Source: Trachythela sp. YZ-2020
Taxonomy: Eukaryota > Cnidaria > Anthozoa > Malacalcyonacea > Clavulariidae
DNA: 64,000 nucleotides
NCBI GenBank assembly: GCA_016169945.1
Contig: JADLSH010000367.1
Span: 7,034,501-7,098,500 of the forward strand
Direction: 5' to 3'
The notes beneath the pieces are model-generated. The model was not told where the DNA came from. It searched no databases and worked only from the letters and a program-made list of their open reading frames with translations. A program made the translations under genes and the position numbers. How positions within the stretch are numbered: position 1 is the stretch's first letter; the number at the start of each line of letters is the position of its first letter. Positions 4,500 to 58,939 of the stretch are shown here, piece by piece.

Positions 4500-5102
4500 A
4501 AAACCCAGTTAACCAAAACTGTATCATTATTTTCCATTGGACTAGTTTTATCACAGGTTTTATAGATTGTTTAATTTTTCAATAGTACATTTTTGAAAAT
4601 ATCATGCATGCATGAGTTATTGTTTTTCCTTACTACCCTTGATACAGTATTTTTGAACAAGATATTGCATCAAATAAATATTGGAAACTACACTGTAGCT
4701 TTATTGAAACTTTAAAAGGTATAATTATATGAAACTTTGTGTACGAATAATCGAATAACAGAGCTTAAATTTTCAGTATTCCTGAGTACTATATTTGAAT
4801 AACAGGGCTTAAATTTTCACTATTCCCGAATACTTCAAAATCCAATTTTCTAATACATGCACAAGATCATATTAAGACTCCAAATTCCAAGCCCTGATAT
4901 AAAGTAGATTGACAATATAATAATGTATCTGCCTAGCTAGGAACAATTTTTACACGAATGAATCCTGATATTCAATAATGTACCATAAGGACACGTTATA
5001 TAAAAAAGTGTAATACAAGTTGTTACATAAATTAAGATATATACCTTTGACATTTGAATTTTATATTTGCTACTTTGTACGGTATTTGGTTCACATTCGA
5101 TG
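4500..5102. other. No gene seen
   Basis: AT-rich sequence between the P-element-like gene and the Polinton. A degenerate direct repeat of about 58 bases around 4745-4835 (CAGAGCTTAAATTTTC and CAGGGCTTAAATTTTC) is the only structure noticed. Confidence 0.4.
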
Positions 5103-5456
5103 TGATTCTTTTATTATCGTTAGCCGACAGTGCGATCTTGTTAACTCTTTCCGTATAAATCTCATGCATCCGGCTCCTAAATGTGTTTATTCTCTTAACA
5201 TGTTTTCCTAGAGTTTGCTCATCATCTCTAATTCTGCTTGAACACAGTATACTATTATAGAGAGATGATGTATACCTTTAACTTTACCGACGGTTTTTAG
5301 TGTAAGCTTTGAACTTCCATTAACCAATACTGGTTTATAGATTTTAAGGTTAACCATATCCTCACCATCGCTTACATATGTTACGGGTCCTAAGTCAACT
5401 TCCTTTACCAGAATCTGAAACCCAACTCTTCGCAAATCCTTACTTATTGAGATTAT
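5103..5456. repeat. Left copy of a 354-bp inverted repeat
   Basis: This is the reverse complement of 31650-32003. Within the shared protein-coding stretch I found only a couple of substitutions (for example AACC against AGCC in the VNLKIY/VSLKIY codons). It encodes, on the minus strand, the last 75 codons of the small protein seen complete at 31533-31898, followed by a fragment of the polymerase C-terminus. Similarity stops sharply at 5103. Confidence 0.9.
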
Positions 5457-5489
5457 ACATTATATACTTACTTATCTTTTTTAAAAGTC

Positions 5490-7748
5490 TTACTTCGTCC
5501 GCCGATGCCCTAAGGCTATTGTGTTGACTCCATCCGGCAATATGATTATTTTATCATCGTTAGCCGACAGTGCGATCTTGTTAACTCTTTCCGTATAAAT
5601 CTCATGCATCCGGCTCCTAAATGTGTTCATTCCTCTTAACATGTTTTCCTTTGTGAACAGACATCTTTTATAATCCTTGAACGTTATCTCTTTTTCAATC
5701 ACCCCCTTCTTAACCCCCTTACACTTCTTCTCCTCCTTTGTACTACGGTCCATTTTGTCTGCGTACAACTTACTTCTTAATCCTACAAACTCTGATATTT
5801 GCTTCCCACCGGCCTCATCCTCCATCATCCCTATTACCTTTTTGTTAACCCCAGTAGGAATTCCCGACGGATGGTTCTTATCAAAATTACTGGTGTCGAA
5901 GTGTGTGTGAACGTCTTTAGAGATGTCCTTATAGAAGTCTTTTGTTTTAATCTCGTAACACAGACTGTCGGTATCTGTAAACAGTAACTGTGCATTGTCT
6001 CCATAGTTTTTCTTAATGTAGTTGTAGTGAAAGTCGTACATAGTGTCTTGCTGATGTCTAGGATACTCATTCCAAGGTATATTGGTTTGTTTAGTATTAT
6101 AGTTGTCCTCTCCATATGTACCGCAACTAGGTTTTCTGTAAAAGTATTTACACCCTTAAAGTTTACTTTCTTAACTAACTTTTCCAACAGTTTCTCACTA
6201 GTAACTAGTCTAACATCTACCCTATTTCTAATATTTTTCATGGTTTTCCCAAACACACTGTTATTCATTAATTTGAAGAAGTTTTTCTCAAAGTCTGTTG
6301 TTCCTTTAATTCTTAGATCTGTGTTTAGTTGGATGTAATTCTTCAACCACGTACTTTCATTAAATTTTATACCCTTATATACTTTTGTAAGTTTTAGTCC
6401 TAGTGAAAGGTATTGTTTAAGATTCTTGTGGTGAACAACATACTTTTCCTTGTTGTTTAGATGTGGAATAAGTTTTTCGACGTTCCCGACTTTTACCCTT
6501 TCCGCTGCGAGAGGGTACTCATTATGTGTGTCATGCAACTCATCAGGATACTCTAGGTCTACCTCCAGGATACATCCCTTTCCTTTCTCAAGCTTGCCCC
6601 ACCGTGTTAGTTCTTCCTCAGTCATCCACTCGAATTCATTCACGGGTAATGGATCGCTCATTGCGTAACCATACAGATTAATCTCGTTCACCACCTCAAA
6701 CTTACTAATATCCTTCACCTTCATAGGAAACTCTATTCCATCCGAGTTTAACATTTTCGCTTGCTTTTTTAAGATTTTAGTAACCCTCTCACCATGTCTC
6801 TCAACAGAGTTTAGCGCTCTGACAACAGCCCACTTGAAACACTGATCATCATTGTTTTGCATATTAATGACAGCCTTCTTCATCATTATATCTTTTGGGA
6901 GAGGTTTGTAACTTTTTCCCTTCAATGGTTTATAGTTTGTGATGAAAACCTCTAACTCTTCCACAGACAGCATTCTCCATCAACTACCAAGTTTCTGAAA
7001 CTTTGCGAGTGATTCTAGCATTTTGATGCGCATCTTTTCATACTCTGTAGTACAATCCTCTGAGATTATTATGCTGTGTGTGTTGCTACGGAAATGTGCT
7101 ATGGTTATTACATTTTCACCGGTTTTAGGGTCTGATCTAATCATCTTACAAACAAGAACTGTATACACCTTTTTTCCAACACTATCTGTGTTGTTAATTA
7201 ATGTCTCAACCATCTCTGTGGTGCCGTTTAAAACACTCTTGGATCTTTAAGACCGCTACCGGCTATGCTCCACTTGCTGGTATTCTTCTTAATGGTACTA
7301 GAGACTAGTCTTTGGCTCTAAGTTCTTTAAGATTTTTTGTCTTCTCTCCTCATCCTTAAAAAGTTTTCGTAACTTGTTATTTAACTTGTTTCTCATCTTC
7401 CCCAACTTCTTTGATCCCTTCCACCTCTGGGCCTCTACCTCCTTTTGTCTCTTCCTTTCATCTCCTGCAATCTATTGCTCCCACTTCTTTATCTCCCTTT
7501 CTCTAACTTTCTCTAACTTCCTTTAACTTTTGTTGTAATTTTTGCTTGAGTCTCTTTGCTTGTTCTTTAATTTTCTCTTCACGCTGCTTTACCGCTTCTT
7601 TAATTTTCTCTTCACGTCTTTTTGCTGCTTCTTTAATTTTTTCCTCACGTCTTTTTGTTGCTTCTTTAATTTTCTCTTCGCGTTGCTTTGCTTGCCCCTT
7701 TTGCTCCTTAAGTTTTTGAATGTATGCACCGATAGTATTATTCCACAT
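5490..7748 (-). pseudogene. polB: Protein-primed-type DNA polymerase B, degraded
   Basis: This is the element's replicative polymerase. Motif A reads VDLEYPDELHDTH (about 6540-6565), motif B NFFKLMNNSVFGKTM (about 6240-6285), and motif C LLFTDTDSLCYE (about 5950-5985), so the palm core is recognisable. The C-terminal part after the palm is also present, ending at the TAA at 5490-5492. Breaks: a TGA at 6980-6982, a one-base frameshift just before 6041, a frameshift near 7228 in a T run, and further breaks upstream. The first part (7503-7748) encodes a highly charged coiled coil with four repeats of about 11 residues based on REEKIKEA. This continues as basic, coil-like sequence up to the polymerase, so it is either its N-terminal extension or a separate gene. 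Full-length relatives are usually longer, so the exonuclease region seems largely missing. Confidence 0.9.
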
Positions 7749-7797
7749 CCTTTCTTTATTAATACAGTTTCTTTTAAATAAAAAAATGAAAAAAAAA

Positions 7798-7858
7798 TCA
7801 TCGACACAGCAAATAGCGATGTCCATTAAATTCCATTGGTTTCTTTGTTTTTATGTAG
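7798..7858 (-). pseudogene. 3' end of the SAP-like Polinton gene, cut off by the 10.4-kb insertion
   Basis: The minus-strand frame here ends in KPMEFNGHRYLLCR and a TGA at 7798-7800. It is the continuation of the gene whose 5' part lies at 18259-18491: when the insertion and one copy of the 9-bp duplication are removed, the reading frame runs through without a shift. The next gene downstream, the coiled-coil/polymerase frame, begins 50 bases later on the same strand, which suits a compact viral-type operon. Confidence 0.8.
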
Positions 7859-7953
7859 CAACCTCGTACCCAGGGCCCGCCCGCCCGATTTTTTTGAGTC
7901 TGGCCGAGGTAGCGGGCGAGGCCCTGGTAAAGGCTGGTCACGTGATAGCAAAA
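7859..7953 (+). repeat. Left terminal inverted repeat of the 10.4-kb transposon
   Basis: GC-rich 95-bp sequence identical to the reverse complement of 18164-18258. It also contains an internal imperfect palindrome (CCCAGGGCCCGCCC against GCGGGCGAGGCCCTGG) and a GTCACGTGA box. Beyond 7953 the two ends diverge at once. Confidence 0.9.
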
Positions 7954-9215
7954 ATCTAATAGCATTACGTCATACAAAGTTGTTGTTACCGGGGGGGATA
8001 AATATTGGCCGACAAAACTTACAAAGTTCTCACAAGAAATGATGAGATTGCACATTTATATTAATTCGTGAATGTTTATGTTAGTATTAAAAGCAAAGAA
8101 AGAATATAATCTACTATTCTACTGGATGAACATTTATCCTAAATTTATGGCCCAACGAAGTCATGATGAAGGCCAAAGCAAATGGAAGTTAGATTCAATA
8201 TGATGTGTTTATATATTATTGAGGAACTGAGTCAACTGACAGAATATAATGCATATATACGCGAGTAAGTTACCAATAGTGTTACAATTGAATATATACA
8301 TGTAAATTTGTAAGAAATAGTTCTCAATATATATTTGATGCCTCGTGTCGCAGTTAAATACGTTCATGTAATTTTATGTATGCTGGTTTATAATACTATT
8401 AACACTATATACATCAATACATGTATAACCTCCAAGTGTAGAGTCAGTAGAGAGCTTCTAGACAGCTCCAGCTCTGAGAGGCTATTTTATTGCGACTAAC
8501 ATTTTCGTCTTTTCATATATACTTGGCCCCTTGTAAATGTTTTAGTATCATTAAGTTAATCACTGGCTCTAAAGTGTGACCAGGCATGGGAGGTGTTTTT
8601 TTTTCTCTGGGTTCAAATCCCAGTTCACACTTTTATAATATAAATACAAAGCCTTTAGCATGCATTCTGAATTTTGTCTACTACTATTTTGCCAATCTTC
8701 AATTCACACAATCACACAACAACATCAGCTATTTTATGCAGGTTCCTTAAAATCCATAAGTTTCCCCTGGGTACATACTTTGTTTCAATATTCTGACTCT
8801 ATACTGGTAGGTAGGTAGGTTGGCAATGTTATGAAGCAACTTACAATATCAAATACACTCTAATTGGGGCCGCAGTAATTGGCAATAGCTGTTGCGGTTG
8901 CCCACCCAATTGTCCAAATGTTTATGTTATTGTTTAAAATGAAATGTAATGTGTACGTATGATGGCAAAGTTAATAAAAAAATAAATACCTGAGGGTTTG
9001 TCTTGTAGACATGGATTGAGATTGAGTAATAAATAAAGAAGCATTGCAAAATTATGTGTTAGAGTCAAGAAAATTCAGTTGGTATTAATGAACCCTAAAT
9101 ATTCTAAACTTGTGGGCAACAATTTTTCACTTGTTGCCCAGCAGGATACATAATTTGCATTTATCTAAAGCCATTTGACCACAATATATACGCATATAAC
9201 TAGCCATATATCTAA
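7954..9215. other. No gene seen (interior of the 10.4-kb element)
   Basis: AT-rich sequence with no recognisable coding region. At 8574-8631 there is a tRNA-like fragment: a perfect T-arm (CTGGGTTCAAATCCCAG) closed by an acceptor-like pairing of GTGTGA with TCACAC, but without room for D and anticodon arms. A short GTAG microsatellite lies at 8807-8820. Confidence 0.5.
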
Positions 9216-9451
9216 GGGACTGGTCATTAAGTAGAGGAGGGGGGAGGTCTGTATACACAAACTATTGTAGGAGGGCAGTACAGTTTCAAGTGCATTATTA
9301 ATACAATATATGAAATAGTCTTCCAAATAGTGGGTGGAGGGGGGGAGGGGTTCAGCCCAAACTATGCTCCACTTTGGGGAGGGTCAAAAAATATTGAACA
9401 AGGTATATCTCATTTGCACCAGCCCTCTCCCCTCAATTAATGACTGTTCCC
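9216..9451. mobile_element. 236-bp MITE with TAA target duplication
   Basis: The left end GGGACTGGTCATTAA and right end TTAATGACTGTTCCC are imperfect inverted repeats, followed inwards by G-rich and C-rich tracts that also pair (AGGAGGGGGGAGG against CCCTCTCCCCTC). TAA flanks it on both sides (9213-9215 and 9452-9454). A 3-bp TAA duplication fits PIF/Harbinger-derived MITEs. There is no coding capacity. Confidence 0.7.
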
Positions 9452-9665
9452 TAACTAGCACAAATATCACTGATAATTTTGAAGAAGGCATGTGCATGTG
9501 TGATGTTCCATATTTCAAATTCAGAAAACAAGTCCTCAGCAGACTCAATTGCATGACATTTCAAGACAATGGAGTCTATAAGTTCCATTGTAACTCCTGT
9601 ACTAAGGTTGATTCCTCCAAGCCTATTACTTCCCAATTTACTCCTGTATGCCATTAGCATCTCTC

Positions 9666-11930
9666 TGATGATATGATATGATATGATATGATACTTTAAT
9701 GATATGCTCCCAAGTGGGCTCTTCAGCATAAAATTACAACAATTTAAATATTAATATAACAGCTAATTTAAAATGTTATGTTAAGATAATTTAAACTATA
9801 ATATATCTATAGGACTTTCTAAATTGTCAATTTATGATAAAAGGATAAAAATTATGGATTCGAATAAAACGTATCTAGAATATGTGATTTAAGTTTCTTC
9901 TTAAAACTTCTTACTGTAGGAATGTTTTTAAATTTGTCTTCTCAATCGTTCCAGATTTTCGTTCCTCTGTAGGGAAACGTTCTCTGTCCTGCTGCCGTTC
10001 TGTAAAATGGAATGTGGAGCAGATCTTTATAGCGCATTGGATGATCGTGTAACTCAACACGTTTACTAAACTTGTCGCACAAATAATTGGGGGCTAGGTT
10101 GTTAACGCACTTATAGGCCATTACTGTATCTCTAAACAATAACAGTTGTTCGACAGGTAGCCGTCCAAGTTCTTGTAAAACTGGTGTAATATGGTCAAAC
10201 TTTCTGGTATTTGTGATGACTCTACACGCAAAGTTCTGTACTGCCTGGAGTTTTTTCAAATTCACAGAGGAAGTATTAGACCAGATGGAGGAGCAGTATA
10301 AAAGCTTGCTAATAACAAGAGCTTCAATAACTAACAAGAGCGTATCACTGTCGAAGCTGTCCTTGACTCGGTACATTTGAACTAATTTGGACATACATGA
10401 TGAAACCAGTTTAGTAATGTGACAGTCATATGATAGGTGTGAGTCAAGAAGTACCCCTAGATCTTTGACGGATGGGACTGGCGTAATGGTTTTTCCCAAG
10501 AGGTTTAACGATATATCAGGGGGGATGGTTCCCATCAGTTGACTTGTTCCAACAAGGAGGAATTTAGTTTTTTCTGGGTTAATAAGCAATTGGTTCGCAG
10601 AACACCACTTTACGACCCTGTTGAGATCTGATTCCAAATTATGAGTCGCTTGTTCTATGTCTTTGATGGAGAACGACAGAAAAACTTTAGAATCATCTAC
10701 GTACGAATCAAGGTTACACGATTGAGTGGTTGATGGTAGGTCATTTGTGTAGATACAGAACAATAGAGGTGATAGGATTGCACCTTGTGGTACGCCATGG
10801 GTAATGGGGAGTGAAGAAGACATTTGTGATCCAATACGTACAGATTGAGATCTACCAGAGAGATAACTGTCGAACCATTTCAATGCCTCAGGAGAAGCAC
10901 CAATGTAACTTAGTTTATGCAACAAGATTGAGTGGCTGACGCTGTCAAATGCTTTGGATAAATCTAACAAGATCAAAGCGGTCACCATCTTCTTGTCCAT
11001 AGCTTCCAGAATACAGTCGCTTACCATAATGTTGATGGTTTCAGTGGAATGGTATTTTCTATTTCCACTCTGATGAGAGGATAAACGATTATTGTTAGAT
11101 AAGTAAGCACCAAATTGATTAAGGACAACTTTTTCACAGATTTTTGAAGCAACGACAAGAAGTGAAAGGGGTCGATTATTCAATGCCAACTCGTGATCGC
11201 CTTCCTTCAGCAATGGTATTACTTCGGCTAATTTCCAAACATCAGGAAACGTCGATGAAGCGAGTGAACAGTTTATTATGTCCGTGAGGGGGCTAATATT
11301 ACAGGAAGGCTGTCTTTAATAACACGAAGGCTTATCTTATCTAGTGCAGGGGACTTGTTAGTGGGCATAGCGAGGATAATACGTTGCACCTCGGTGCAGG
11401 TAACTGATTCGAAGTAAAATAGCTCACTTGTTGGGTAAGAAATTACAGTAGATAATGGACTAATTAATTCAATGTTATTGTCTTCAGCTACACGTCTTGC
11501 TGCTTCAGCGGTGTTCTTTCCCAGCGAGGTGAAGTATTGGTTGAAATCATCAGCCACTACTTTTTGATCTTTGGCATATACTTGCGATTCCTTTTCTTTG
11601 GTTGGAATATATCGATTTATTGTCTTCCAAAGAGAGCTGGGGTTGTTCTTATGTTTCTGAACTTCATTAATTGCGTGGATTTTGGCAGCACTTTTTAGTG
11701 TAGATTTGACTTTGTTACGATAATCTTTGTAATGATTCCAATCATTATTGTCGCGGGTCTGTAGGTAACGGCGGTGAAGTCGATCTCTACCTCTCATAAG
11801 GTTTTTAATTTCGTGCGTGACGTACGGGCATGGTCGGCTACGAACTTTCACGGTCTTTATTGGTGCATGTACACCAAGGACAGAGTGAAGTATGTCGTTG
11901 AAGGTTTTTAACTTCGAATTCACGTCTCTG
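9666..11930 (-). mobile_element. LINE 1: 5'-truncated L2/CR1-like retrotransposon
   Basis: The minus strand carries the end of a linker domain and a complete reverse transcriptase domain. The 3' end, in minus orientation, is an AGCCCACTTGGGAGC hairpin and a short tail of ATCAT repeats (9666-9693), the tail type of the L2/CR1 group. The 5' end lies inside the RecQ-like helicase gene at about 11930, where the translated sequence changes from helicase C-terminus to LINE linker without a frame change. Confidence 0.85.
9942..11213 (-). pseudogene. LINE 1 reverse transcriptase
   Basis: This 423-codon frame copies the element's RNA at the target site. Visible RT motifs: NNRPLSLLVVASKICEKVV, LLDLSKAFDSVSHSILLHKL with the first catalytic Asp, HGVPQGAILSPLLFCIYTNDL, and SYVDDSKVFLS with the YVDD catalytic box. 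The C-terminal thumb region follows (YCSSIWSNTSSVNLKKLQ, then ITPVLQELGRLPVEQ). Upstream, 11276 to about 11930 in another frame holds the linker (VHAPIKTVKVRSRPCPYV and FNQYFTSLGKN). A frame break at 11214-11275 separates them, and the endonuclease is missing, so the copy is dead although the RT itself is open. Confidence 0.9.
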
Positions 11931-13440
11931 ATCCTTGCTCTTTGCCCATCAGAAACATCACGAACTGGTATTTGCTCTGCGACTTCCTCTACATCATCAC
12001 ATGTTATTTGGAAAAATTCCTGACTTGTTGTGCAAGATAGGCATTGACAAGATTTGGAACAGTTACTGCAGCAAGAATGTCCCTTATTATTTATTGCATT
12101 AGATGAAGATCCCAAATAGATCATGAGTTCCTTTCTCAAGCAACTGGTTTCTTCCCTGCAAAAAGTCCTCATCGCTTCTGTCATACCTGGTTTAATTTGT
12201 TTGTTGCAATATCATTACCATTAAAGAATAGTGAGGCATCTGCTGGCTTGCCATCTCGCCCTGCTCTACCAATTTCTTGTTAGTAGGATTCTATGGTCCT
12301 TGGTACCCCAATGTGTACAACATGTCTTATATCATGAATGTTCACTCCAATTCCAATGGCAATTGTGGCAAAAACGACACGGATCACTCTATCTTCATTC
12401 TTGCCAGTCAGTTGTTTCATGATCTCATGCTTCATCCTTTCAGTTTGTGGTGCATAACAGGCAATTTTCCGGTTTCTTCTCAGACTCGGGAAAATAGCAT
12501 CTCTCTCCAATTTCTTCCATAAATAGTTTAAAAGCATAACCACACCACTTCAGTGGCAAATATACCAGAGTGAGTGGATATGCTGTTAAACTATTCTTTA
12601 AATCTTTGGCAATTGGAAGAAGTATTGCGTCCTCTCCATAAGACGACGTTTTTCCTTTTTAATATATATATTTGGTCTATTCAAATTTGCTATCACGAGT
12701 ACAGGCTTGTCCAGTATAAGGGAATTGGTTAGTGTTTCTCTAACATGTTTCGGTGCGGTCGCAGTCAGGACTAGGAAAGGTGCGGATGGAAAAATGGAGC
12801 CTAACTGAGATAATTTACCAAAATCAGGGCGAAACTCAAATCCCCACTCGTCTATAAGGTGTCCGTCGTCAATGACACATGCAACAACACGTTGAAAAAC
12901 CTCTGACAGAAGTATTTTCCTGCCTTCTCTGCAAGAAATAAATGCTTCTGTGTGAGCAAAAGCTAATTTTGAATTTCCTTCTTTTATGTTTGTTTCGGTT
13001 TTGTTTGATAGTGATAGCATTTTCAGACCTCTCTCTTCTTCGTCACTGTCACTATCTCTTTCGCTTTCTATTCCGTCTTCCTCTTCACAACCAAGAATGT
13101 TTTTCTGTGTTACGCTAATTTTTAAGACAGCAGCTTTGATACCATGATGTTTTAGACATGTCATTTGATCTTCAAACAGTGCGTTTAACGGCGTGATGAC
13201 TAAAACGATACTTTTTCCCTCTACATCTCTGTCTCGTGCGTTCAAGAAATCGAATATGAAGGGGAGCAAGTGGAATAGAACTGAATTTCCATAGCCTGTT
13301 GGAGGGACTGCGATGGTGTCTCTATTAAGAACTAACGACTCTAACATTTTGTACTGTTTCACTTTAAGAAACAAATTATGATAGTTTGACGCATCTAAAG
13401 CGTTCCGGACCGCGTTAATAAAATAGTTCAATGAATACAT
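11931..13440 (-). pseudogene. RecQ-like DNA helicase, degraded and interrupted by LINE 1
   Basis: A superfamily 2 helicase of RecQ type. From the Met at 13440: motif I PPTGYGNS (residues 46-53, with the Walker A Lys replaced by Asn), Ia VITPLNALFEDQ, II VIDDGHLIDEW (where DEAH is usual), III LTATAP, then the second RecA domain with VVFATIAIGIGVNIHD (motif V) and QEIGRAGRDGKP (motif VI). A zinc-binding tail follows (CREETSCLRKEL, then CCSNCSKSCQC). An acidic insert (residues 119-137, DSDSDEEE) lies between Ia and II. Breaks: a frameshift near 12590, a TAA at 12280-12282 just before motif VI, and a frameshift near 12190. The gene is transcribed away from the zinc-finger/DUF6589-like gene, with 400 bp between them. 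Loss of the motif I Lys argues that this copy was inactive, perhaps before the frame breaks. Confidence 0.85.
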
Positions 13441-13842
13441 TTTTCAACTAGTGATTGTCGTTGACTGTGGAATATATCAGAACAACAAACTAGCAAAGTC
13501 ATGTATATGTATATCTATGTTATAAAAATAGCGTGATCGGGTTTCCCCTACTTTGTCAGGAAAATCCGTATTACCGAGGAAAATCCTCATACCATTTGAA
13601 TAAAATCTAAGTTTGGGAAATTCACGTGCATTCCCATGCAGGATGGATGGGCGTTGTCTTTGTTTTACTGTTCAGTGTTGTTTTCTTTTATATTTAAAAT
13701 GTTTAGTGTCAAACGATCAAAAAAGACTTAATATTTAACTGTTAATCTGCTCATTTTTGTCTTACAATGCTCCAAAAATAGTCATTTTCCCTGGCCTCAG
13801 TCTCAGGGAAAACTCGTTACGGAGGGCAACTCCCATTTACAG
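13441..13842. promoter_or_regulatory. Divergent intergenic region between helicase and zinc-finger gene
   Basis: A 400-bp region separates the two divergent genes and is the only place for both promoters. It has GGAAAATCC-type repeats (13559-13590) and ends with a splice acceptor (CCCATTTACAG, ending 13842), so the first exon of the plus-strand gene must lie in here. No defined promoter motif could be assigned. Confidence 0.4.
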
Positions 13843-14346
13843 GTTATATAATTGTAAAACTGACATCCACTTTCGTTTCTAAACATGTCTTCAAACGAAA
13901 GATCCCCTCGGAAAAGTTACTACAAAGGGAAAGTAATATATGCTGTCTTTGTGGTGACGACAAATATTCTGGCAAGTTTACAGATATTTTTAGTTCGGTT
14001 GGTATACGAAAACGGATCGCTGAAACAATAGAGAACGTAATCGGCATAGTTTACGAAGAAATCGAAGGACAGCCTACGAAAGTATGTCGCAGTTGCCAAG
14101 GAAAACTTGAAGGTTTCTCCAAATTTAAAACGTCGGCACTAAATATGTACAAGAGTATTATTGGAAAAGTAACGTCAAAGAGATGTCTTGTATTCTCTCC
14201 AAATGAGTCTGGTCCAATCACGAAAGCAAGTTGCACCTCCGACGTGGAGACCTCCTCCCTAGAGCTGACAGAAGAAAGAACCTCAAATATAGTTTCTTTG
14301 GATTCCACACATACCGAGTACATACCACACATACAGTATTTATGTT
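13843..14346 (+). pseudogene. ZAD-like C4 zinc-finger exon of a DUF6589-type gene
   Basis: From the acceptor at 13842 the open frame contains CCLCGDDKYSGKFTDIF and, about 45 residues later, KVCRSCQGKLEGFSKFK: two C-x2-C pairs spaced as in ZAD-like zinc-binding domains, which are known for protein pairing and DNA-associated roles. A CLVFSPNESGP segment follows, the usual linker seen after such fingers. The frame ends at a TAA (14344-14346), probably intron read-through or a decayed junction; the next homologous exon starts at 14865. I infer one gene with the DUF6589-like exon from order and strand, not from a proven splice. Confidence 0.65.
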
Positions 14347-14864
14347 AAAATATGCCTTGTACGTACCTATATGAACAGGCTTTGTGATTGGTTGGTTATG
14401 ACTGAATAAAAGACAATAAACTATAGAAATCGCTTTTCTAAAGAACGAGTCATAAACACTGATCACTTTTGTTTCAGAAGACCAATCACAAAACATGTTC
14501 ATATTAGGTAGGTACTTGCCGTGAACTTTGCAATATATAAAGGGAATAAATATGTGGTATGCACCCTAGAAAATTTTGAAATCTAAAAAAATAACATCTC
14601 CTGGGTTACCAACTCTGCATTCATTTTAATTAAACATTTTAAACATAAAATCACCATCAGCCCCAAATGCGGGGGGGAGGGGGGCTCACACCGACCAGTT
14701 TTAAATGCATTTCTAAAGTAGAGACAGGCAATCTAGCTACAAGTACTCTCTACCATGATGCTGAGTGCTATATACAATCTGTCAATGATGCAAAGCAGAT
14801 GTCTTGCACAACAGATAGTGTGATGTTAATCCTTTTTACACTAAAGTTATATGTATATTTCAAG

Positions 14865-15148
14865 GTGATGGAATAAGAAATAACATCAACAAGAAGCGAC
14901 TCCTCCTATATTTCAAGTCATCAGGTTCTTTCCATAATTATTCTGTTGAGATGTTCACCAGCATTGCACAAGTAGAAGCTTTGTGGTCAGAGGAGATGGC
15001 TCACAGGCTCACACGGGGACAGTATGTTAACTGGAATGGTGGTCAGGGCAAAAACATTGCTTGTGATATGGCTCAAGAGATCTGCAAGGATGTTGTTACT
15101 TTGTCACATTGTTATGGAATCGTTGAGTGTGTTTACTCTTGTAGATAA
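14865..15148 (+). pseudogene. C-terminal exon similar to DUF6589 proteins
   Basis: After a TTTCAAG acceptor (14864) the frame reads GIRNNINKKRLLLYFKSSG, then NYSVEMFTSIAQVEALWSEE, MAHRLTRGQYVNWNGGQGKN and IACDMAQEICKDV. The RTKYA-like/NGGQGKNI(A)CD pattern is what I recognise as the conserved C-terminal end of DUF6589 proteins, which are abundant in cnidarians and some fungi and are suspected to be transposon-derived. The stop is at 15146-15148. Middle exons of the protein were not found between 14347 and 14864, so this copy is either deleted internally or too decayed to read. Confidence 0.65.
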
Positions 15149-15785
15149 ATAGAGTAAACACATTGAAGGATTCGATAACAACGTGATAAAGTCAGTTGTT
15201 TTATTAAGTTCTTATTGTTTACATCACTTTAAACTAAAATACAGTAACACTTAGATGTTATATATATATATATATACAGTATATATGATTTTTAAAACAC
15301 TCCAAGCCTGTGGTATAAAGGGTACCATTGCATGGCTAAATATTTTTGGGTACTATGCTTGATGTAAATATGTATGTAGTTTTCATGGTTTAGTAGCTCA
15401 CCAAGATAAGTTCATATTAACAGACTTTATTGGGCTAAGCAACAAGAACATGCCTTTAATATTACTCTCAACATTTCAAAATTTACTTCCACTTTTGTAT
15501 ATATTGCATGTAATATAAATTGTATATCAAATTGTATAATATATATATTGTAGTGTATAGATATAAAATATATATCCCTTAGTTAATGCCAGTGTTTCAT
15601 ACCAAAACTATGTTGAATGATATGATACTGTATACTATAAATGCATATCAATTAAAAGTGTACAAACACAACTTAGTCGAAGATGAAATTGTTTCTTCAT
15701 ATAGCAACAAATACTGGCTACAACAGGAAATTTGTGATCTCAAATTGTAGACACCTTTTCAGGAGCCCTTTTTATATATATAAAC
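15149..15785. other. No gene seen; AT-rich
   Basis: AT-rich stretch with TA dinucleotide runs near 15258 and 15535. It ends at the insertion point of the 1952-bp element, whose left target copy is TATAAAC (15779-15785). Confidence 0.5.
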
Positions 15786-17737
15786 CACAGGAGGCCCAGG
15801 CTCTATTTGCCCGCGCCCGCCTGCGACTTCCTTATTACGAGGGAAGGAAGGAAACATTGAGACCAAAATAGCCCAGACTTGGCATATGTTACACGAAACT
15901 ATCCTCGATTTTTCGCCTTTAATGCATTTATTTCGAGATTAATCGATATCCCCTGCAAGAATGATACCGTACAACTCTCAAAACAACGATGCTTTAATCA
16001 AAGGGCTTAAATTCGCTCTAAAATCCGTGAGGGAATGACAAAATTTGGCAAAAATATATCCGCGTGCCCGGTTTGCTGTTAGAAACCGGAAGTCGTTGAA
16101 CAACTCAAAATACACTTCAAACCTGATTGGACAACGAATATCAACAAAAATTTCAAATATTTCTCCACTGGGAGGGGGACAGTAAGAATTTGAATCAAAA
16201 CAATCGTTGTCGGGGGAAAACCAAAACCAGTGCAAATTTATTTCTTTAAAATGTTATCCACATTAAATTCTAACGTTTTGGATCGTGAACCAGTGAATAA
16301 GAAGCGTAAGCGAGTTGGTCATTCTGATTCGTTTTATGTGTCGTTAAAAACATGGTATAAGATTGTTATTTTATATACAATAACACTTTGATATATTACA
16401 AAGTCTAATGCAAGTCGATTATATGTGTTATATATATAAACTGTAGTATGTTATTATATAAAATATGTATAATAAATTCGTATTTCACATTGCGTTTATT
16501 ATAGGATTCTCCTGAATTATCATCCATCTATAAATCTCGATGCATTTTGTTTTCGTGACGATATTTTAAAACATGCATTAGCTGAGAGTGTTTATATGGC
16601 TTATGGTTGGACTGAAACTTTAATTAAAGGCTATTGAATTCACCGTTAAAAACCTACATGCTTTGCTATAGTATTGTCATATTAACTTTATTTAAAAATA
16701 GATCTACTGTATTTATAGTTAATAAACGTGAGGGCGGTGGCTATTATTGCATTTAATGTCTTTAATACAATGTCTTGTTTACCGTTCGAAGAATAATATT
16801 CAATAAATTATGTCACAATTATAGCTATTGTTTTATATATCAAGAAAATTATTACGGTAAAAGTATATTTACTGTATTTCAAAATCTGTTTTGCCCACTG
16901 AATATTTATCCACTAACATATTTTACCATACAAAAATAACAAAAGAATTGTTGTCAAACCGCATCTTGCTTAATAATATATGTCAAAGGTACTAATACAC
17001 ATGATACTGTGCAAGAAGACAAACGTATAATCGGTAAACAATCGTATATATCAGCAACACAAAAACATATGACTATTAAATAATTGATAAGTGACTAAGG
17101 CTGAGCAGTTTAACTGTTCGATTCGATGTTCATATGAACAAGGCCATTCTTTCAATGTCCTTTTAACGTTTATATGAAACCACAATGAAAAACTGTTCAG
17201 TGACCATAATTTTACGCTGAAACATCCTACTAAATAGGGTAAACTAGCCATATTTACTGACTAAAATAAATTTGCACTGGTTTTCCCCACTGATCATCAT
17301 GGTTTTCCCCCGACAACGTTTGTTTTGATTCAAATTCTTACTGTCCCCCTCCCAGTGGAGAAATATTTGAAATTTTTGTTGATATTCGTTGTCCAATCAG
17401 GTTTGAAGTGTATTTTGAGTTGTTCAACGACTTCCGGTTTCTAACAGCAAACCGGGCACGCGGATATATTTTTGCCAAATTTTGTCATTCCCTCACCGAT
17501 TTTAGAGCGAATTTAAGCCCTTTGATTAAAGCATCGTTGTTTTGAGAGTTGTACGGTATCATTCTTGCAGGGGATATCGATTAATCTCGAAATAAATGCA
17601 TTAAAGGCGAAAAATCGAGGATAGTTTCGTGTAACATATGCCAAGTCTGGGCTATTTTGGTCTCAATGTTTCCTTCCTTCCCTCGTAATAAGGAAGTCGC
17701 AGGCGGGCGCGGGCAAATAGAGCCTGGGCCTCCTGTG
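15786..17737. mobile_element. 1952-bp TIR element with 7-bp target duplication
   Basis: Long inverted repeats of about 460 bp (15786-16241 and 17266-17737) start with CACAGGAGGCCCAGGCTC. TATAAAC flanks both sides perfectly (15779-15785 and 17738-17744). The arms are nearly identical; the right arm carries an extra short segment near 17285-17305. Both arms contain the same GGGAGGGGGACAGT box and GC-rich ends. The 1-kb centre is AT-rich and holds a possible spliced gene of 78 codons on the plus strand. A 7-bp duplication fits no superfamily that I can name with confidence. It is inserted inside the 10.4-kb transposon. Confidence 0.85.
16251..16637 (+). CDS. Possible two-exon gene inside the 1952-bp TIR element
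   Basis: Exon 1 is 16251-16354 and starts with an ATG nine bases inside the left inverted repeat's inner edge. It encodes NKKRKRVGHSDSFYVSLKT, which includes a basic cluster resembling a nuclear localisation signal. A GTATAAG donor at 16355 and an ATAG acceptor ending at 16504 define a 150-bp AT-rich intron. Exon 2 (16505-16637) joins in frame and encodes HPSINLDAFCFRDDILKHAL and YGWTETLIKGY, ending in TGA. The total is 78 codons. No homologue comes to mind. The clean splice sites, the continued frame and the central position in the element are the only support. It could be chance. Confidence 0.4.
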
Positions 17738-18163
17738 TATAAACAACATCACATATTCATTTATACAAACTTTAATAGTACTATTCGATATTCAGTGTCA
17801 CAATTGACACGACCACTACGGCAGAATATCAAAATAGAAAGAAAATATATTCTTACATAAATACTGAGTATCAATTTACCTTTTATACTTGATCTTCAAT
17901 TCCCATCACATCCCCGCTCTTGACTATCGAATAATTATTAATTCTAGCGAATACTCCGTCTTTTACACCTCAACCAACATCCGCAGTCATCAATGAATAC
18001 AAACGTATTTTTGTTTAATATTTTTTAACATTTTGAGTTCGAACTTTCATGTCCTATTTGGTGTTAAAATATTGACGACTGACGAGTTTACAGTGAAGCT
18101 CCCCCCGATATTGAATTCGCTTCAATACATCACGTGACAAAATAATCCAAAAATTTTGGATTA
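17738..18163. other. No gene seen (right interior of the 10.4-kb element)
   Basis: Sequence between the nested TIR element and the right terminal repeat. Near the right end (18131-18178) is a hairpin: CACGTGAC, then AAAATAATCC paired with GGATTATTTT, and CACGTGAC again. Confidence 0.5.
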
Positions 18164-18258
18164 TTTTGCTATCACGTGACCAGCCTTTACCAGGGCCTCG
18201 CCCGCTACCTCGGCCAGACTCAAAAAAATCGGGCGGGCGGGCCCTGGGTACGAGGTTG
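18164..18258 (-). repeat. Right terminal inverted repeat of the 10.4-kb transposon
   Basis: Exact reverse complement of 7859-7953 over 95 bases, ending CCCTGGGTACGAGGTTG, next to the TTTAGGTAG target copy. Confidence 0.9.
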
Positions 18259-18491
18259 TTTAGGTAGTAGGCGATTGATCCAGTGTTTCTGTCAAGGTTT
18301 ATTGCCGCATTGTTAATACTTGGAAAACGTCTCCTCGGACGATATGTTTTAAGGACGACTGGGGTGGCGACGCATCTACCAGGCTGATAGTCAATGTTGA
18401 GAAATTCACACAAGTCCTTGTTTAAGAGTTTGCGAAATCTCTTCACTCCCTGTTGTTTTGCCATTACTTGTAGTTCTATTAATGTTATCAT
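18259..18491 (-). pseudogene. SAP/Rho_N-like Polinton gene, 5' part
   Basis: The minus-strand frame from the Met at 18491 begins with ITLIELQVMAKQQGVKRFRK and LLNKDLCEFLNI, a short helix-turn-helix pattern like SAP or Rho N-terminal domains that bind nucleic acid. About 77 codons are native; beyond that the frame runs into the right inverted repeat of the 10.4-kb insertion. The missing 18 codons lie at 7798-7858. The uninterrupted protein would have been about 95 residues. Its role is unknown; small SAP-like proteins are common in Polinton-type elements. It would be intact but for the insertion. Confidence 0.65.
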
Positions 18492-18599
18492 TCTTTATTA
18501 ATATAAATGTTTATTTTATATTAATATTTGTAGCACTTTACATAATGGCTCTCATTATCAGCTTGTAACTACCCCATCCTCCGCCGAGTCCGAGTAATC

Positions 18600-20119: not shown

Positions 20120-20150
20120 TAATTAATATACGGGGTGCCGCAGGGGTACG
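20084..20150. repeat. GGGGTGCCGCA direct repeats at the LINE 2 5' boundary
   Basis: Four copies of GGGGTGCCGCAGGGG-type sequence in 67 bp, marking the boundary between Polinton sequence and LINE 2. They may be the start of the LINE 5' UTR. Confidence 0.6.
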
Positions 20151-21940
20151 TTCATTACGAAAGGTTAAAGATGGCGGTAAGAGCTATTAAACAAGCTCTG
20201 TCTTTGCCAAACTATATGACATCTCATTTCGTTTCCAGAGTTATTCTACTGTTATTTGTGATCTATATTGTCGAAAGCGTAGCTAATAGAATCGGTAACG
20301 GAGTTGTTCGAGGCAATGAATCACTTTCGTGTATTGATTCTACTGCACGATCAACGTTCCAGTGGAAGTGGAACTCTAGAACCCGGCGTTCGTTCTCAAA
20401 GGCCAGGAACATTTACTACCCGAATTCGACAGCTACGTTTTCTTTCAGTCGAATAATTTTGAGCGGCGATGTCGAAGTAAATCCCGGAATGGATGGCGGC
20501 GGAGACGAGGGCACAAAATCTAACAAACGACAAAGTCAAAGAGCTCGAAATATTAAAATCGCTCATTTGAATATTCGTTCTCTTAAAGATAAAGACCACT
20601 GTATTTTAGCGAACGAGTTAACAATGAAGCATAAACTTGATATTTTTACCGTGTCAGAGACTTGGTTGAATAGCTCTGTTGCGGACGTTGAAGTGGAATT
20701 CCCTGGTTATATCCTATATAGACTTGATCGAAACGATAAAAGAGGTGGCGGTGTTTGTGCTTTTGTGAATCAAAGTTTTAAGGTCGAACGGTTGAGTGAA
20801 CTCTCTTACATTTCTGAAAGTGGGCTACATCAGTTATGGTTAAAAATCCAAGTGAGAAACTTTAAATCGTTTATAATATGTACAGCATACCGTCCACCGA
20901 AAACCCCTTTGTCCTGTTTCGAAACGGATTTTAGCGATACGTTAACCACAGTCATGACGCTGGACAAGCCGATCTATATCTTGGGTGACCTAAACGTTGA
21001 TGTCCTCAACATAAGTAATGATCAATCAAACGTACTTTTGGACTTTTGTGCTAGTTTTAACTTATCCCAAACGATCGATAAACCTACAAGAATAACTCAA
21101 ATTTCTAGAACACTTATTGATGTTATACTTGTTTCTAACAAGAAATTTATTAAGGAAACAAAAGTTATTCCAAATTCGATTAGCGATCATGACATGGTTG
21201 TTGCAGTTCTAAATTTGAAGAAATGCCGTTCGAAACCCTCCTATATTTCTATCAGGAGTTTTAGACATTATAATAAAGATCGGTTCTTGGAGGACATATC
21301 GAAGGCCCCCTGGTCAGTTATAGACAATTTTGACGATGTTGATGACTGCTTGAATGCTTTCAACTTATTATTTAATCAAATCCTAGATCAACATGCACCC
21401 ATCAGAACTGTTAAACTTAGAGCTCGGCCCAACCCGTTTGTTACTGACGAGATTCGTGACTTAATGAAACTAAGAGATCGTTGGCGAAAACTAGCTAGAA
21501 CCTCAAATAACTCAAGTGCTTGGCTGAAGTATAGAGATTTGAAACGTGCAGTCAAAAGCGAGTTACGGAAAGCCCAAAACGATTTCGTGACCCAGCGGAT
21601 AAATGATAACCCCAATGATGCCAGAAGCCTCTGGAAAACAATACGTTCGTGTATACCAAAAAAATCTGTCGGCAACCGAAGTTTTGACAAAGACGACATA
21701 GTTGTAGCAAACGAATTTAATGAATTTTTTACATCTGTCGGGAAAAGAACAGTTGATAAGATAAAGCAATTAGCTAGCGAGTGTAATTACACGCCATCAC
21801 AGCCTTTTGTGGCTAGAAGTTATGCACCCTCAGAACAATTTGCCTTTGAAACTGTGGAATGCTCCTTTGTTGAAGATATTGTCAACTCCATGCAAAAGAA
21901 CAAGGCTCCTGGAATCGATAAGATAACTCTCGGTCATTAA
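20135..21940 (+). pseudogene. LINE 2 ORF: 2A-like motif, APE endonuclease, linker
   Basis: The 601-codon frame starts with a hydrophobic stretch (VSRVILLLFVIYIVESVA). Residues 111-119 read GDVEVNPGM, matching the ribosome-skipping 2A consensus except that the essential final Pro is Met. The endonuclease follows: IKIAHLNIRSL, DIFTVSETWLNSSV (catalytic Glu), FIICTAYRPP, YILGDLNVDV, TLIDVILVS and SISDHDMVVAVLNL (catalytic SDH). The linker has HAPIRTVKLRARPNPFV and EFNEFFTSVGKRTV. The frame breaks at 21938-21940, at the start of the RT finger motif. The start could be the Met at 20135 or 20171. Confidence 0.9.
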
Positions 21941-21959
21941 GGACTGCTTACCAGCTATT

Positions 21960-23399
21960 GTGCCATGGGTTACTAAAATCATTAACGCTTCCTTTGTTAG
22001 TGGAGTTTTTCCATGCGCTTGGAAGTTGGCCGAGGTATGTGCGATTACAAAGGTCGGTGATCACGAATTAGCAAACAATAATAGACCTATTTCCCTACTA
22101 CCAGTGTTATCTAAAGTATGTGAAAAAATTGCGTTTATCCAACTATCATCGTATCTAGATATGCATCAAAGACTCTCCACAAGACAAAGTGGCAATAAGA
22201 AATGGCATTCAACAGAGACTTCGCTAATCCATTCAACCGATGCGATCTTTAAGGCTATGGATGAAAAGAAAATAACTGCGATGGTACTGCTAGATATGAG
22301 CAAAGCGTTTGATAGTATTGACCATTCTATATTATTATGCAAATTGCAGGATGTTGGTGTCTCATTCGAAGGTCTGTCGTGGTTTAGAAGTTATTTATTT
22401 CAGAGATACCAGGCTGTTCGAATAAACTCGGTGTTGTCTGAAAAGTTGCCAGTCGTCAGTGGTGTCCCACAGGGGAGTATTCTCGGACCCCTGCTCTTCA
22501 GTGTGTATGTAAACGATCTACCTTCCGTGAGTCAAGATTGCTTATCGGAATGTTATGTAGACGACACTAAACTTCTGAAGTCGCTTTGTGTAAAGGATTC
22601 CAACACTGCCATTACCAAAATAAATGGTGATCTTCTAAGAATACGCAATTGGAGTTTTGACAACTGCCTCCTGCTAAATCCTGACAAAACAAAATTAATG
22701 GTTTACGGCAGCCTGCAAATGTTGTTGAAATTAACGGATTTTAAACTATTCTTGCTTGGAAAAGAAATTGCTCCATCTGATTTTGCCAAAGACCTAGGAG
22801 TCAAATTTGATTCAAACTTGTCTTTTGACAAACATACTGTTGCGACTGTATCATCATGCATGTCAAGTTTAGCTCAGATTAGTCGGGCAAAGCATGCATT
22901 TAGCAAAGACCTATTAATTAAGATTGTTAATGCTTTAGTTTTTAGCAAGTTATTTTATTGTTCGTCAGTGTGGTCAAACACTTCAAATAGCAACATACGC
23001 AAATTACAATGTGTTCAAAATTTTGCAGCTCGCATCGTCAGTGGCACACGCAAATTTGAACATATTACTCCGGTGTTGAAAGAGTTGCGTTGGTTGCCAG
23101 TTAAATCACACTTATATTATCGTGATGCCACGTTGGCCTTTAAATGTATGACGGGTTGCGCACCTTCATACTTACGTTCTCAATTTATATCTAGAGGCGA
23201 AATTACAGGCCGTGAAACACGTAGCTCTCAGAAATTAAATATACCATTATTTAAGAGTGCCTCAGGACAAAAAACTTTCTACTATAGAATTGTTAGCTTG
23301 TGGAACAACATTGACGCGCAGTTGAAGTTATGCACCTCGATTCCCAGCTTCAAGTACAATCTAAGAAATCAGCTCAGAAATCAGCTTGAACTATCTTAG
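21960..23399 (+). pseudogene. LINE 2 reverse transcriptase
   Basis: A 479-codon frame continuing the polyprotein after one frameshift. RT motifs: NNRPISLLPVLSKVCEKIA, LLDMSKAFDSIDHSILLCKL (first catalytic Asp), SGVPQGSILGPLLFSVYVND and CYVDDTKLL (YVDD box). The thumb and C-terminal part follow (FYCSSVWSNTSNSNIRKLQ and TPVLKELRWLPVKSHLYY). The whole RT is open, and the element is the best preserved LINE here, so the insertion is comparatively young. The stop is at 23397-23399, about 110 bases before the 3' tail. Confidence 0.9.
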
Positions 23400-28308: not shown

Positions 28309-28911
28309 ATGGAAACACCGTTCAATATGATGATTCTAGGTATGACTGGATGTGGGAAGACATACTAGTTACTCGAAATGTTAGAGAAAGATTACAAAAA
28401 CCACTTTGACTATATCTTTCTTATTTGTCCAACCTATGAGTGGAATCAAACCTATCAAAGTTGGAAATACAAGGACGATGAAAACTTTATCCCTATACCT
28501 TGCGATCAAGATAGAGTGGACGACTATCTAAAAGACATTCTGAGTGTCTTTAGTGGGACAAATAGTCTAATCATTCTCGATGACTGTGCTAGTGGCCAAT
28601 CCGTTAAGAACAGAACAAGTGAGTTAGTTAAGCTTGCATGCTCGGCAAGACATTATAACCTGAGTACCATTGTAATTACGCAACAACTAACATCCATCGC
28701 AAAGCGATACAGAGAGATCATATCCAAGTTGGTAACGTTCTACAACCCTAACAGAAAGGTTATGCAGATAATTATGGATGAGTCCCTCAACATTTCAAAG
28801 GTTGAGGAGAAGGAAATTGTGGGAAAGTTAAAATATAATAAGAGAAGATTAAAAAAGACTACGACAGAAAACAAGTTAATGAAGTTAACGAGTTCATCTC
28901 AAACAGCCTAA
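28309..28911 (+). pseudogene. A32/FtsK-like genome-packaging ATPase, one internal stop
   Basis: From the ATG at 28309 the Walker A motif reads LGMTGCGKT, then a TAG stop at 28366-28368 interrupts; the frame resumes immediately (LLEMLEKDYKNHFDYIFLIC). Walker B is SLIILDDC with two acidic residues, followed by a sensor-like STIVITQQL. These are the motifs of the ATPase that pumps DNA into the capsid. The C-terminus may be frameshifted at the A run near 28850. The gene starts 37 bases after the capsid stop on the same strand. The ATPase-capsid pairing supports the element identification. Confidence 0.85.
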
Positions 28912-31594: not shown

Positions 31595-31898
31595 GAAATG
31601 GGAGATACAGCATCCTAACCTTCAAACATTCAACATAGTGTTAATTAAGATAATCTCAATAAGTAAGGATTTGCGAAGAGTTGGGTTTCAGATTCTGGTA
31701 AAGGAAGTTGACTTAGGACCCGTAACATATGTAAGCGATGGTGAGGATATGGTTAGCCTTAAAATCTATAAACAAGTATTGGTTAATGGAAGTTCAAAGC
31801 TTACACTAAAAACCGTCGGTAAAGTTAAAGGTATACATCATCTCTCTATAATAGTATACTGTGTTCAAGCAGAATTAGAGATGATGAGCAAACTCTAG
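31533..31898 (+). CDS. Polinton terminal gene of unknown function
   Basis: A 121-codon frame of which the last 75 codons are repeated, inverted, at 5208-5435. The sequence alternates hydrophobic and polar residues (RRVGFQILVKEVDLGPVTYV and SKLTLKTVGKVKGIHHLSII), as in a beta-rich protein. No family recognised. Its N-terminal part (MNYHRSQPLRAHFSLKVVEN) is unique to this end. The two copies of the shared part differ at only two residues, far less than expected from the decay of the neighbouring genes. Confidence 0.5.
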   Translation: MNYHRSQPLRAHFSLKVVENEKWEIQHPNLQTFNIVLIKIISISKDLRRVGFQILVKEVDLGPVTYVSDGEDMVSLKIYKQVLVNGSSKLTLKTVGKVKGIHHLSIIVYCVQAELEMMSKL

Positions 31899-32072
31899 GA
31901 AAACATGTTAAGAGAATAAACACATTTAGGAGCCGGATGCATGAGATTTATACGGAAAGAGTTAACAAGATCGCACTGTCGGCTAACGATAATAAAAGAA
32001 TCATATTGCCGGATGGAGTCAACACAATAGCCTTAGGGCATCGGCGGACGAAGTAAGACTTTTAAAAAAGAA
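31650..32072. repeat. Right copy of the inverted repeat plus polymerase C-terminal tail
   Basis: 31650-32003 is the inverted partner of 5103-5456. From 31899 on it is derived from the polymerase C-terminus (SRMHEIYTERVNKIALSAND) and continues past the repeat to the polymerase stop (GVNTIALGHRRTK, TAA) and the CTTTTAAAAAAG that follows the polymerase at 5475-5490. The window thus has three copies of the polymerase 3' end: the gene itself, and one fragment in each inverted repeat. Confidence 0.85.
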
Positions 32073-36639: not shown

Positions 36640-38117
36640 ATGATTGAGAAATTTTATGCAATGATATGGCCAATATTTGAAAAATGTTTTCCATTAATGA
36701 AAGTAAGAACTTCTTCACGTGACACACTGTTTATGTCTCCTCTCGTAAAATATCTGTTGAAACAAAGAAAAAGGGCTATCCGGACTCAAAATACAGAATC
36801 TAATGTAAGGTTGAAGGAGAAGATCAATAAATTAATTCGAGACAATCAATTGCGTGCTGTTAAACACGAGATGAATAACCATAAAGCTGGAACAAAACGA
36901 TGGTGATCGAATGTAAATAATATTACGTCGAGGAAAAGTCGGAATGCATCTGTCAGTGCTCTCATTGATCCCAACGAAATAAATGTATATTTCCAAGGCA
37001 TAAACACTGACCCTAATTATATAACCCCGGAGCTTTTGCAAATCTCAGAAGGCACAAGAATTCCATTTTTGTGCACTAACACCGTCCATGATCTGGCCCT
37101 GAAGATCTCCCAAACTGGTTCTTGAAAGAATATGCTATAGAGTTGGCACCTGTCATCACAGAAATCTTTAATACGTCACTGAGAGTTGGCAAGGTGCTTA
37201 AAATGTGGAAGCTTGCTAATGTTTTACCACTGCCCAAAGAAGCTCCCCTGAATTCATGTAATCACTAAGGCCAATCTCATTAACGGATATTATCATGAGG
37301 TTATTTGAGACAGGTGTGTATAAAACTGAATTATAAAAAGTTTGCATATAAAAAGGGACACAATTCAACTATGGCCTTGATCAAATGTCAACATGCATGG
37401 CTAAAGTGGTTAGACAGTGATGCTAATTATGTAAGAGTACTCTCGTTTGATTTCAGCAAAGCATTTGATAATGTGCCCCATGACATTTTAATTGAGAAGA
37501 TTAAAAAGCTACCAATCAATCCGTATGTTGTGAATTGGATAATCAGTTTCCTCAAAGGCAGAAAACAGAGAGTAGTGGTCGATGGAATTACAACAGAATA
37601 CCTGAATATAAATCGAGGTGTGCCTCAGGGAACTGTGTTGGGTCCTGTTCTCTTTTCTATAATGGTGAATGACATTAAGGCTGTTGATTCTTCCAACCAG
37701 TTAGTGAAATTTGCGGATGATCTGACGTTAGAAATACCTGGCACAGAGGCTGGAGACACAGCAGGTGCTGAAGTCAACAGTATTCAATTGTGGTCGGAAC
37801 AAAATAGGATGCCCTTGAACATGAAAAAGACATACGAAATGGTTGTGCGGGAAAAGACATCTGCGCCCCTCCCGAATCCCTTCCCTTCAATTGAGCGTAA
37901 AGAATGGTTGAAGATCCTAGGAGTCACTCTACAAGATAACCCGTGCAAGTGGGACTTGCACTTCGACGAAATGCTTAAGAAAGCTGGCGGAAGAATGTAT
38001 ATTATGCGAGTGTGTAAATATTATGGCCTGCCTAGGAAACAATTAGACATGTTGTTCAATAGCTTAATTATGTCAATATTTACTTATGCAATTGAACTAT
38101 GGAGATGTGCATCATAA
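36640..38117 (+). pseudogene. LINE 3 linker and reverse transcriptase
   Basis: The linker fragments (36640-36906 and 36905-37080, with SALIDPNEINVYFQGINTDP) are broken by stops. The RT frame (37305-38117) has VLSFDFSKAFDNVPHDILIE (first catalytic Asp), NRGVPQGTVLGPVLFSIMVN, and LVKFADDLTLE (FADD catalytic box). LKILGVTLQDNPCKWDLHFD and the thumb region follow. At least three frame breaks are present between linker and RT. 38187-38393 encodes the C-terminal tail (KRSRILRPRRHNFELPLVKT). Confidence 0.85.
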
Positions 38118-58416: not shown

Positions 58417-58435
58417 CAACCTCGTACCCAGGCGC
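58417..58435 (+). repeat. CAACCTCGTACCCAGGC terminus, shared with the 10.4-kb element
   Basis: The first 16 bases match the termini of the 10.4-kb transposon; further in the sequence differs. A CCCTGGGGCGAG sequence 140 bases downstream (58559) may be the diverged opposite end of a small element. Confidence 0.45.
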
Positions 58436-58939
58436 TTTGGCTTGCTACACGGTTACGTCACGAGCGCTCGGGAAACCCGTCCCGCTGTTGCTACGCACTA
58501 CAACAGGTGGGCATTTTGCACAGCGCATGCGCTAGTTGATAAGCAAAACTTGGCGCAATCCCTGGGGCGAGTTAAAGAATTCAATATGGCGACGCATGGA
58601 AGGAGTGTTTCGTGGATTTCGCTGCTTTTCAAGTTGATAAAACAGCATTGTAATCAAAGAAAACTTTGCAATAATTAATGGAAAACATTTAGCAATGCTT
58701 TCCAAAGGTTTTAAAATGAGAAATAAGTCATTTTGCTCCGTTATTTCTCTTTTTATGCTTTGAAAACAGGCACGCTCACTCTTTTTGAAAAATCCCACCA
58801 ACATTCCCAAGTTACTTCCCCATCATTTGTTTAAACCATAGTTCATAGAGACAGGGTTTGGAAGCTGGGGGTGTGGCCAAATTATGTTATTGTTCTATGT
58901 CACGTGACAATACGAGTGCATTGAAATTCGAGATGTACA

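Follow-up and report, generated by a model that had tools for sequence, protein, structure and literature searches.

DNA transposons that carry a RecQ helicase are already known. The available text of one account (PMC9587614) describes KolobokH, a lineage of Kolobok elements known in that account only from fungi, in which a RecQ helicase accompanies the transposase, as well as a rhodophyte element, Kolobok-1_CCri, whose RecQ helicase lies on the complementary strand. Kolobok elements, as far as the excerpted sources go, duplicate TTAA on insertion and have termini of the form 5'-RR/YY-3', and a further lineage, AcademH, is presented in the title of its description as DNA transposons of animals and fungi that encode a helicase. 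Here we describe an insertion of about 10 kb (positions 7859..18258) in a 64,000-nucleotide stretch of the anthozoan Trachythela sp. YZ-2020 (assembly GCA_016169945.1, contig JADLSH010000367.1; G000:C189:7034501-7098500 in the 578-Mb assembly); we refer to the whole stretch as “the window.” The insertion is bounded by terminal inverted repeats and contains a RecQ-like helicase gene and, on the opposite strand, a zf-AD zinc finger with a remnant of a DUF6589 domain. We conclude, with moderate confidence, that it is a decayed, non-autonomous copy of a large cut-and-paste family in which DUF6589 is most likely the transposase and RecQ its partner. We class this combination (zf-AD/DUF6589, an opposite-strand RecQ, 95-bp CA...TG ends and 9-bp duplications, in an animal) as a variant of the known RecQ-bearing theme.

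The borders of the insertion are sharp. The left inverted repeat (7859..7953, plus strand, beginning CAACCTCGTACCCAGG) and the right one (18164..18258, minus strand) are equal at 95 of 95 positions, with no similarity beyond, and the element runs from CA to TG with CAACC as its outermost bases. The flanking 9-mers, TTTATGTAG on the left (7850..7858) and TTTAGGTAG on the right (18259..18267), agree at 8 of 9 positions, the best match at any length from 2 to 15 (the next best is 5 bp at 4/5), and a match of at least 8/9 has a chance probability of 1.9e-4 at the local composition. The identical ends and the 9-bp target duplication reported in the initial annotation therefore both stand, the latter with one mismatch. 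Its further claim, that excision would put a Polinton gene back in frame, is not supported: by frame arithmetic alone, with no sequences joined, the frame of the right flank reaches 16 codons into the left flank and then meets a stop. The same annotation had set Kolobok aside, and rightly so, since the 4-bp flanks (GTAG/TTTA) match at 1 of 4 positions and the termini are CA...TG; a RecQ gene, as in KolobokH, is present. The likeness to KolobokH, on the partial text of its description, lies in the combination of a transposase (here the candidate DUF6589) with a RecQ helicase in one DNA transposon; KolobokH differs in its TTAA duplication, its RR/YY termini and a helicase placed downstream of the transposase. 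Kolobok-1_CCri, by the same source, shares the complementary-strand RecQ with our element but is a member of the Kolobok superfamily from a rhodophyte.

The 95-bp end has at least 45 matches in the Trachythela genome (40 of 48 candidates were scored, so that the count is a lower bound), and the duplication recurs with it. Among insertions with both ends, five are independent and have kept the CAACC terminus intact at each side, and four of these carry 9-bp duplications at 8/9 or 9/9: the window element together with its copy C237 (8/9), C390 (8/9), C222 (8/9) and C231 (9/9), with C351 at 5/9. Insertions with altered termini gave no duplication match (C40 1/9; C253 and C296, which share flanks, 3/9; C385 3/9; C170 2/9). 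Inverted repeats with a duplication of fixed length in independent insertions are what a cut-and-paste element bounded by such repeats leaves behind. The single mismatches in the three imperfect duplications fall at positions 5, 5 and 6 of 9, a post hoc observation on n = 3 that we offer as a lead only. It could be objected that there is no single transposon here at all, and that two small repeats happen to surround host or Polinton genes; very small two-end elements do exist in this genome (back-to-back ends of 63 bp, with a perfect 9/9 duplication, ACACACTTG, and of 108 bp, with one of 8/9; L107 and L103, respectively). The duplication, however, brackets the whole segment, and at C164, an independent locus with a related end, the helicase, zf-AD and DUF6589 appear again, which makes this account extremely improbable.

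The plus-strand gene begins with a ZAD-type zf-AD finger (13782..14348; PF07776, E 3.3e-8; 92% identical in C237) and continues in a DUF6589 remnant at 14819..15148 (PF20231, E 2.4e-9, profile positions 288-360 of 410), and we infer that the two are exons of one gene, the finger being the first. In the window only a 74-residue remnant of DUF6589 survives: about 3.86 kb with DUF6589 exons is gone at a deletion site (14317..15034) and is present in C237 (6611-10467 of the joined stretch), while 716 bp within the same window interval are in turn absent from C237. The domain scores above its gathering threshold of 27 bits in all three copies (36.8 in the window, 37.9 in C237, 43.7 in C164), and the profile is covered from 7 to 163 in C164 (1.9e-11) and from 23 to 163 in C237 (1.1e-9). 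An imperfect 42-bp inverted duplication is found at the end of the remnant (15098-15192), with inverted matches also in C237 and C110. A protein search with the two open DUF6589 pieces of the window joined by X gave 922 candidates, none at E 0.001; for the remnant region of that query there were 2 candidates, none at E 10. Neither the remnant nor the long DUF6589 exon of C164 has a relative in the viral contigs scanned, and the literature searched contained no relevant paper on DUF6589 by name or accession number.

The helicase gene lies on the minus strand, separated from the zf-AD exon by a stretch (13444..13781) that, by its position, is presumed to be the promoter region of the divergent pair. 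Its DEAD domain (12598..13443; Pfam E 1.1e-10) is followed by Helicase_C (12280..12549; E 6.2e-6), a zinc-binding part (11925..12211; RecQ_Zn_bind, E 0.035, below the cut-off) and, downstream of an inserted long interspersed nuclear element (LINE), a conserved C-terminal extension (9454..9669; 69-71% identity by tblastn with the relatives P0001 and P0022). The closest named relative is a protein of the octocoral Paramuricea clavata (67%). When tested on P0022, the protein appears to belong with RecQ and not with other SF2 helicases: the best relatives of solved structure are RecQ and WRN, and TIGR00614 matches at E 1.2e-51, although at 176 bits against a cut-off of 219.8. The viral contigs scanned with the helicase gave four RecQ relatives, all remote (26-28% identity). 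Among the relatives, diverged paralogues occur together: P0001 and P0019, both of Paramuricea clavata, are 57% identical, a second pair that shares one species or contig (P0002/P0010) is 55% identical, and in the helicase tree the members of each pair stand on opposite sides of the starred split. The relatives thus seem to fall into at least two lineages found side by side within one species or contig, a pattern consistent with a helicase that travels with its transposon family.

In the window copy itself the helicase is predicted to be dead because its Walker A motif reads GYGNS and its motif II DDGH (a Walker A motif was detected by script in 21 of 39 helicase relatives, and all 21 have K at the position in question); the gene also has frame changes and a stop (ESY*QEIG) right after Helicase_C that is absent in C237 and C164. 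How genes so damaged could lie between identical ends had been raised as a puzzle, and C237 goes some way to ease it. C237 contains RecQ, zf-AD and DUF6589, and its ends are 98.9% and 97.9% identical to the window end. We rejected it as an independent transposition, since it has the same outer flanks as the window copy and must be the same insertion. The Polinton matches on both sides, on the left over window positions 6315-9403 at 95.8%, gaps included, and on the right over positions 17738-18519 at 98.7%; further out, the right flank of C237 is interrupted by about 1.1 kb of other DNA. An allele of the window was also considered and judged unlikely; two 3-kb stretches outside the Polinton (their placement, by colinearity, is approximate) have no match in the window, which makes joint copying the likelier account, so that the Polinton and its 10-kb passenger transposon were probably copied together. 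The two copies have diverged little (by BLAST, 53 mismatches and 110 gap positions in 6548, 5 and 2 in 756, and 2 and 0 in 521; by MAFFT, 21 substitutions in 1274 of the helicase part), and by simple arithmetic the 190 bp of ends should have gathered about one change or fewer since the duplication. The Walker A change from K to N, the motif II change from DE to DD and the LINE are common to both copies, so that part of the helicase damage evidently predates the duplication that gave C237; only the window copy has the stop and an 11-base gap. For the mobilisation in trans suggested in the initial annotation, the shared damage would also have to be older than the insertion into the Polinton.

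The evidence that the genes belong to the transposon comes from C164. The outer flank of this insertion has no match to the window flank beside the element (three other pieces match window repeats elsewhere), and behind its related end it carries the helicase, without the LINE, together with zf-AD and DUF6589. Since the same set recurs at an independent locus, we take RecQ and zf-AD/DUF6589 to be the element's own genes, as the initial annotation had proposed for a single insertion bounded by its inverted repeats. C164 and C237 are about 92% identical by BLAST in the main block on the helicase side and 96% in that on the DUF6589 side (C237 6594-9231); motif II of the C164 helicase is DEGH, and a minisatellite takes up part of the copy. 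At C110, another independent locus, whose right end is 93% identical and whose outer 1.5 kb has no match in the window, a DUF6589 remnant (83% protein identity) lies about 15 kb inward of the end, across other DNA. The divergent native pair that had been described from the window is thus upheld in its strands, its Pfam domains and its recurrence in C164, with the reservation that in the window DUF6589 is only a remnant and the helicase is split by the LINE.

We infer that DUF6589 is the catalytic transposase; no other candidate turned up in the window copy, C237 or C164. Several observations weigh against this reading. Thirty-nine of the 45 listed ends have no helicase, zf-AD or DUF6589 in the interior read (tblastn at E 0.001; mostly 4-10 kb of interior DNA, fetched at every listed end, with only about 0.6 kb searched at C310:3933420), and the six ends with any of these genes belong to just four elements (two ends each in the window element and C237, one each in C164 and C110). 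Beyond that of the window, C164 is the only insertion in which both genes occur, and just one of its ends was located; its helicase is not demonstrably intact, the script having found no PTGY..S Walker A motif there. Neither an intact DUF6589 protein nor a fold or DDE triad came to light: AlphaFold run without an alignment gave unusable models, with a mean predicted local distance difference test score of 37.7 for an 84-residue window remnant and 36.6 for the 301-residue C164 exon. By eye alone, the aspartates of GDNWD and GGDQMT and a glutamate near HNYSVE or DMAQE are candidates for such a triad. Finally, pairs of DUF6589 and RecQ were scored only beside such ends. The earlier proposal that DUF6589 is the transposase keeps its place as the simplest reading, supported in part. 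Of the checks suggested with it, the 9-bp duplications recur (4/5) and the gene pair recurs in C164, but most ends showed neither gene in the stretch read.

These same ends bear on whether DUF6589 has been given the right role. Mutator-like elements typically have long inverted repeats and 9-bp target duplications, and the ends described here could belong to an element of that or another kind whose real transposase is missing, with DUF6589 and RecQ accessory or captured; the partial text of one source gives 4-10 bp for the target duplications of MuDR and IS256 (PMC10045372), a range that includes the length seen here, and the 39 ends with neither gene in the stretch read would be in keeping with such an origin. 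No Mutator-type transposase, however, came up in Pfam when 16 frames of three copies (window, C237 and C164) were scanned; DUF6589 and RecQ are found there instead, although loss of the gene by deletion is possible, and the pair has been kept in C164 at the identity given above. We regard an origin of this kind as unlikely.

An ordinary animal member of AcademH, with DUF6589 as simply the Pfam name for the AcademH transposase, is a possibility to be entertained tentatively, and it overlaps with the explanation that we prefer. The title that presents AcademH as a helicase-encoding lineage of animals and fungi speaks for it, a helicase being encoded within our element too, as does a fungal survey that, in the part available, ties AcademH, KolobokH or Helitron to DEAD and Helicase_C domains. 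The target duplication of Academ elements, 3-4 bp long, is a weak objection: here the 3- and 4-bp flanks match at 1/3 and 1/4 and it is 9 bp that recurs. A bolder suggestion, that DUF6589 transposases make up a separate superfamily, marked by CA...TG ends, by RecQ partners and by 9-bp duplications that tend to mismatch at the centre, we consider doubtful; if true, the central mismatches would point to an unusual target-joining or gap-repair step, possibly one involving the helicase.

The element has itself been a target for insertion. The LINE in the helicase gene (RVT_1; 9670..11924, minus strand, about 2.26 kb, with a tail of ATGAT repeats) is flanked by an 8-bp duplication, TCTCTGAT, at 9662-9669 and 11925-11932. 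A second nested element (15786..17737) has perfect 438-bp inverted repeats, CACAGG ends and a 7-bp duplication, TATAAAC; it is absent from C237 and is therefore probably recent. A Pox_A32-like ATPase frame at 28369-28911 lends modest support to a Polinton as the host of the whole insertion. An inverted pair, 5100-5456 and 31650-32006 (354 of 357 positions identical, part of it repeated at 5475-5650), may mark the Polinton ends or an internal inverted duplication, and inside it lies another LINE, with endonuclease and reverse transcriptase (20123-23399).

A third end occurs in the window at 58417-58433, starting CAACCTCGTACCCAGG (the 17-base end has three matches in the window against 0.02 expected), where bases 1-16 of the end stand before otherwise different sequence, which suggests that other families with the same terminus may exist; allowing as many as 3 mismatches, no partner for it was found as far as 64000. 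The palindrome TCACGTGA, noticed post hoc, occurs five times in the window against 0.7 expected: three sites (7938, 18130 and 18172) are near the element ends, the site at 58900 is some 480 bases inward of the third end, and the fifth is at 36715. It is a possible candidate for a protein-binding site. The potential hairpin within the 95-bp end is unremarkable (z -1.9; 12 of 200 shuffles), and an Rfam scan of 7800-18300 gave no match at gathering thresholds. Elsewhere in the genome, C250 and C370 have a match to the element beyond the end at the DNA level only, the sole long frames of the complete 5.2-kb element C390 are LINE-like by eye, and the family ends L111 and L110 lie near a Gypsy-like retrotransposon and near transporter-like frames (also by eye); L104, L105 and L106 resemble the tiny back-to-back-end elements without a clear duplication. 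The viral contigs scanned with the end gave one 19-mer (L001) with no further similarity to the window, and one scan of genome contigs gave at least 591 stretches, the 80 retained bearing bacterial titles. In the literature searched, longer words of the end found no paper and 11-base words none with a transposon in its title; by title, no element uniting zf-AD, RecQ and a transposase appeared except for the Kolobok paper.

Taken as a cut-and-paste family with DUF6589 as its probable transposase, fuller members would consist of two divergent genes within ends of about 95 bp. The zf-AD/DUF6589 protein would most likely bind the ends, then cut and join them at sites 9 bp apart, while the RecQ-type helicase would most likely aid DNA unwinding or repair during excision or gap filling; the Polinton that received this copy may then have taken it along when it was itself copied. 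DUF6589 lacks an assigned function, and an association with the ends of an animal transposon would make that function testable, and with it the question of why RecQ helicases occur in several transposon lineages.

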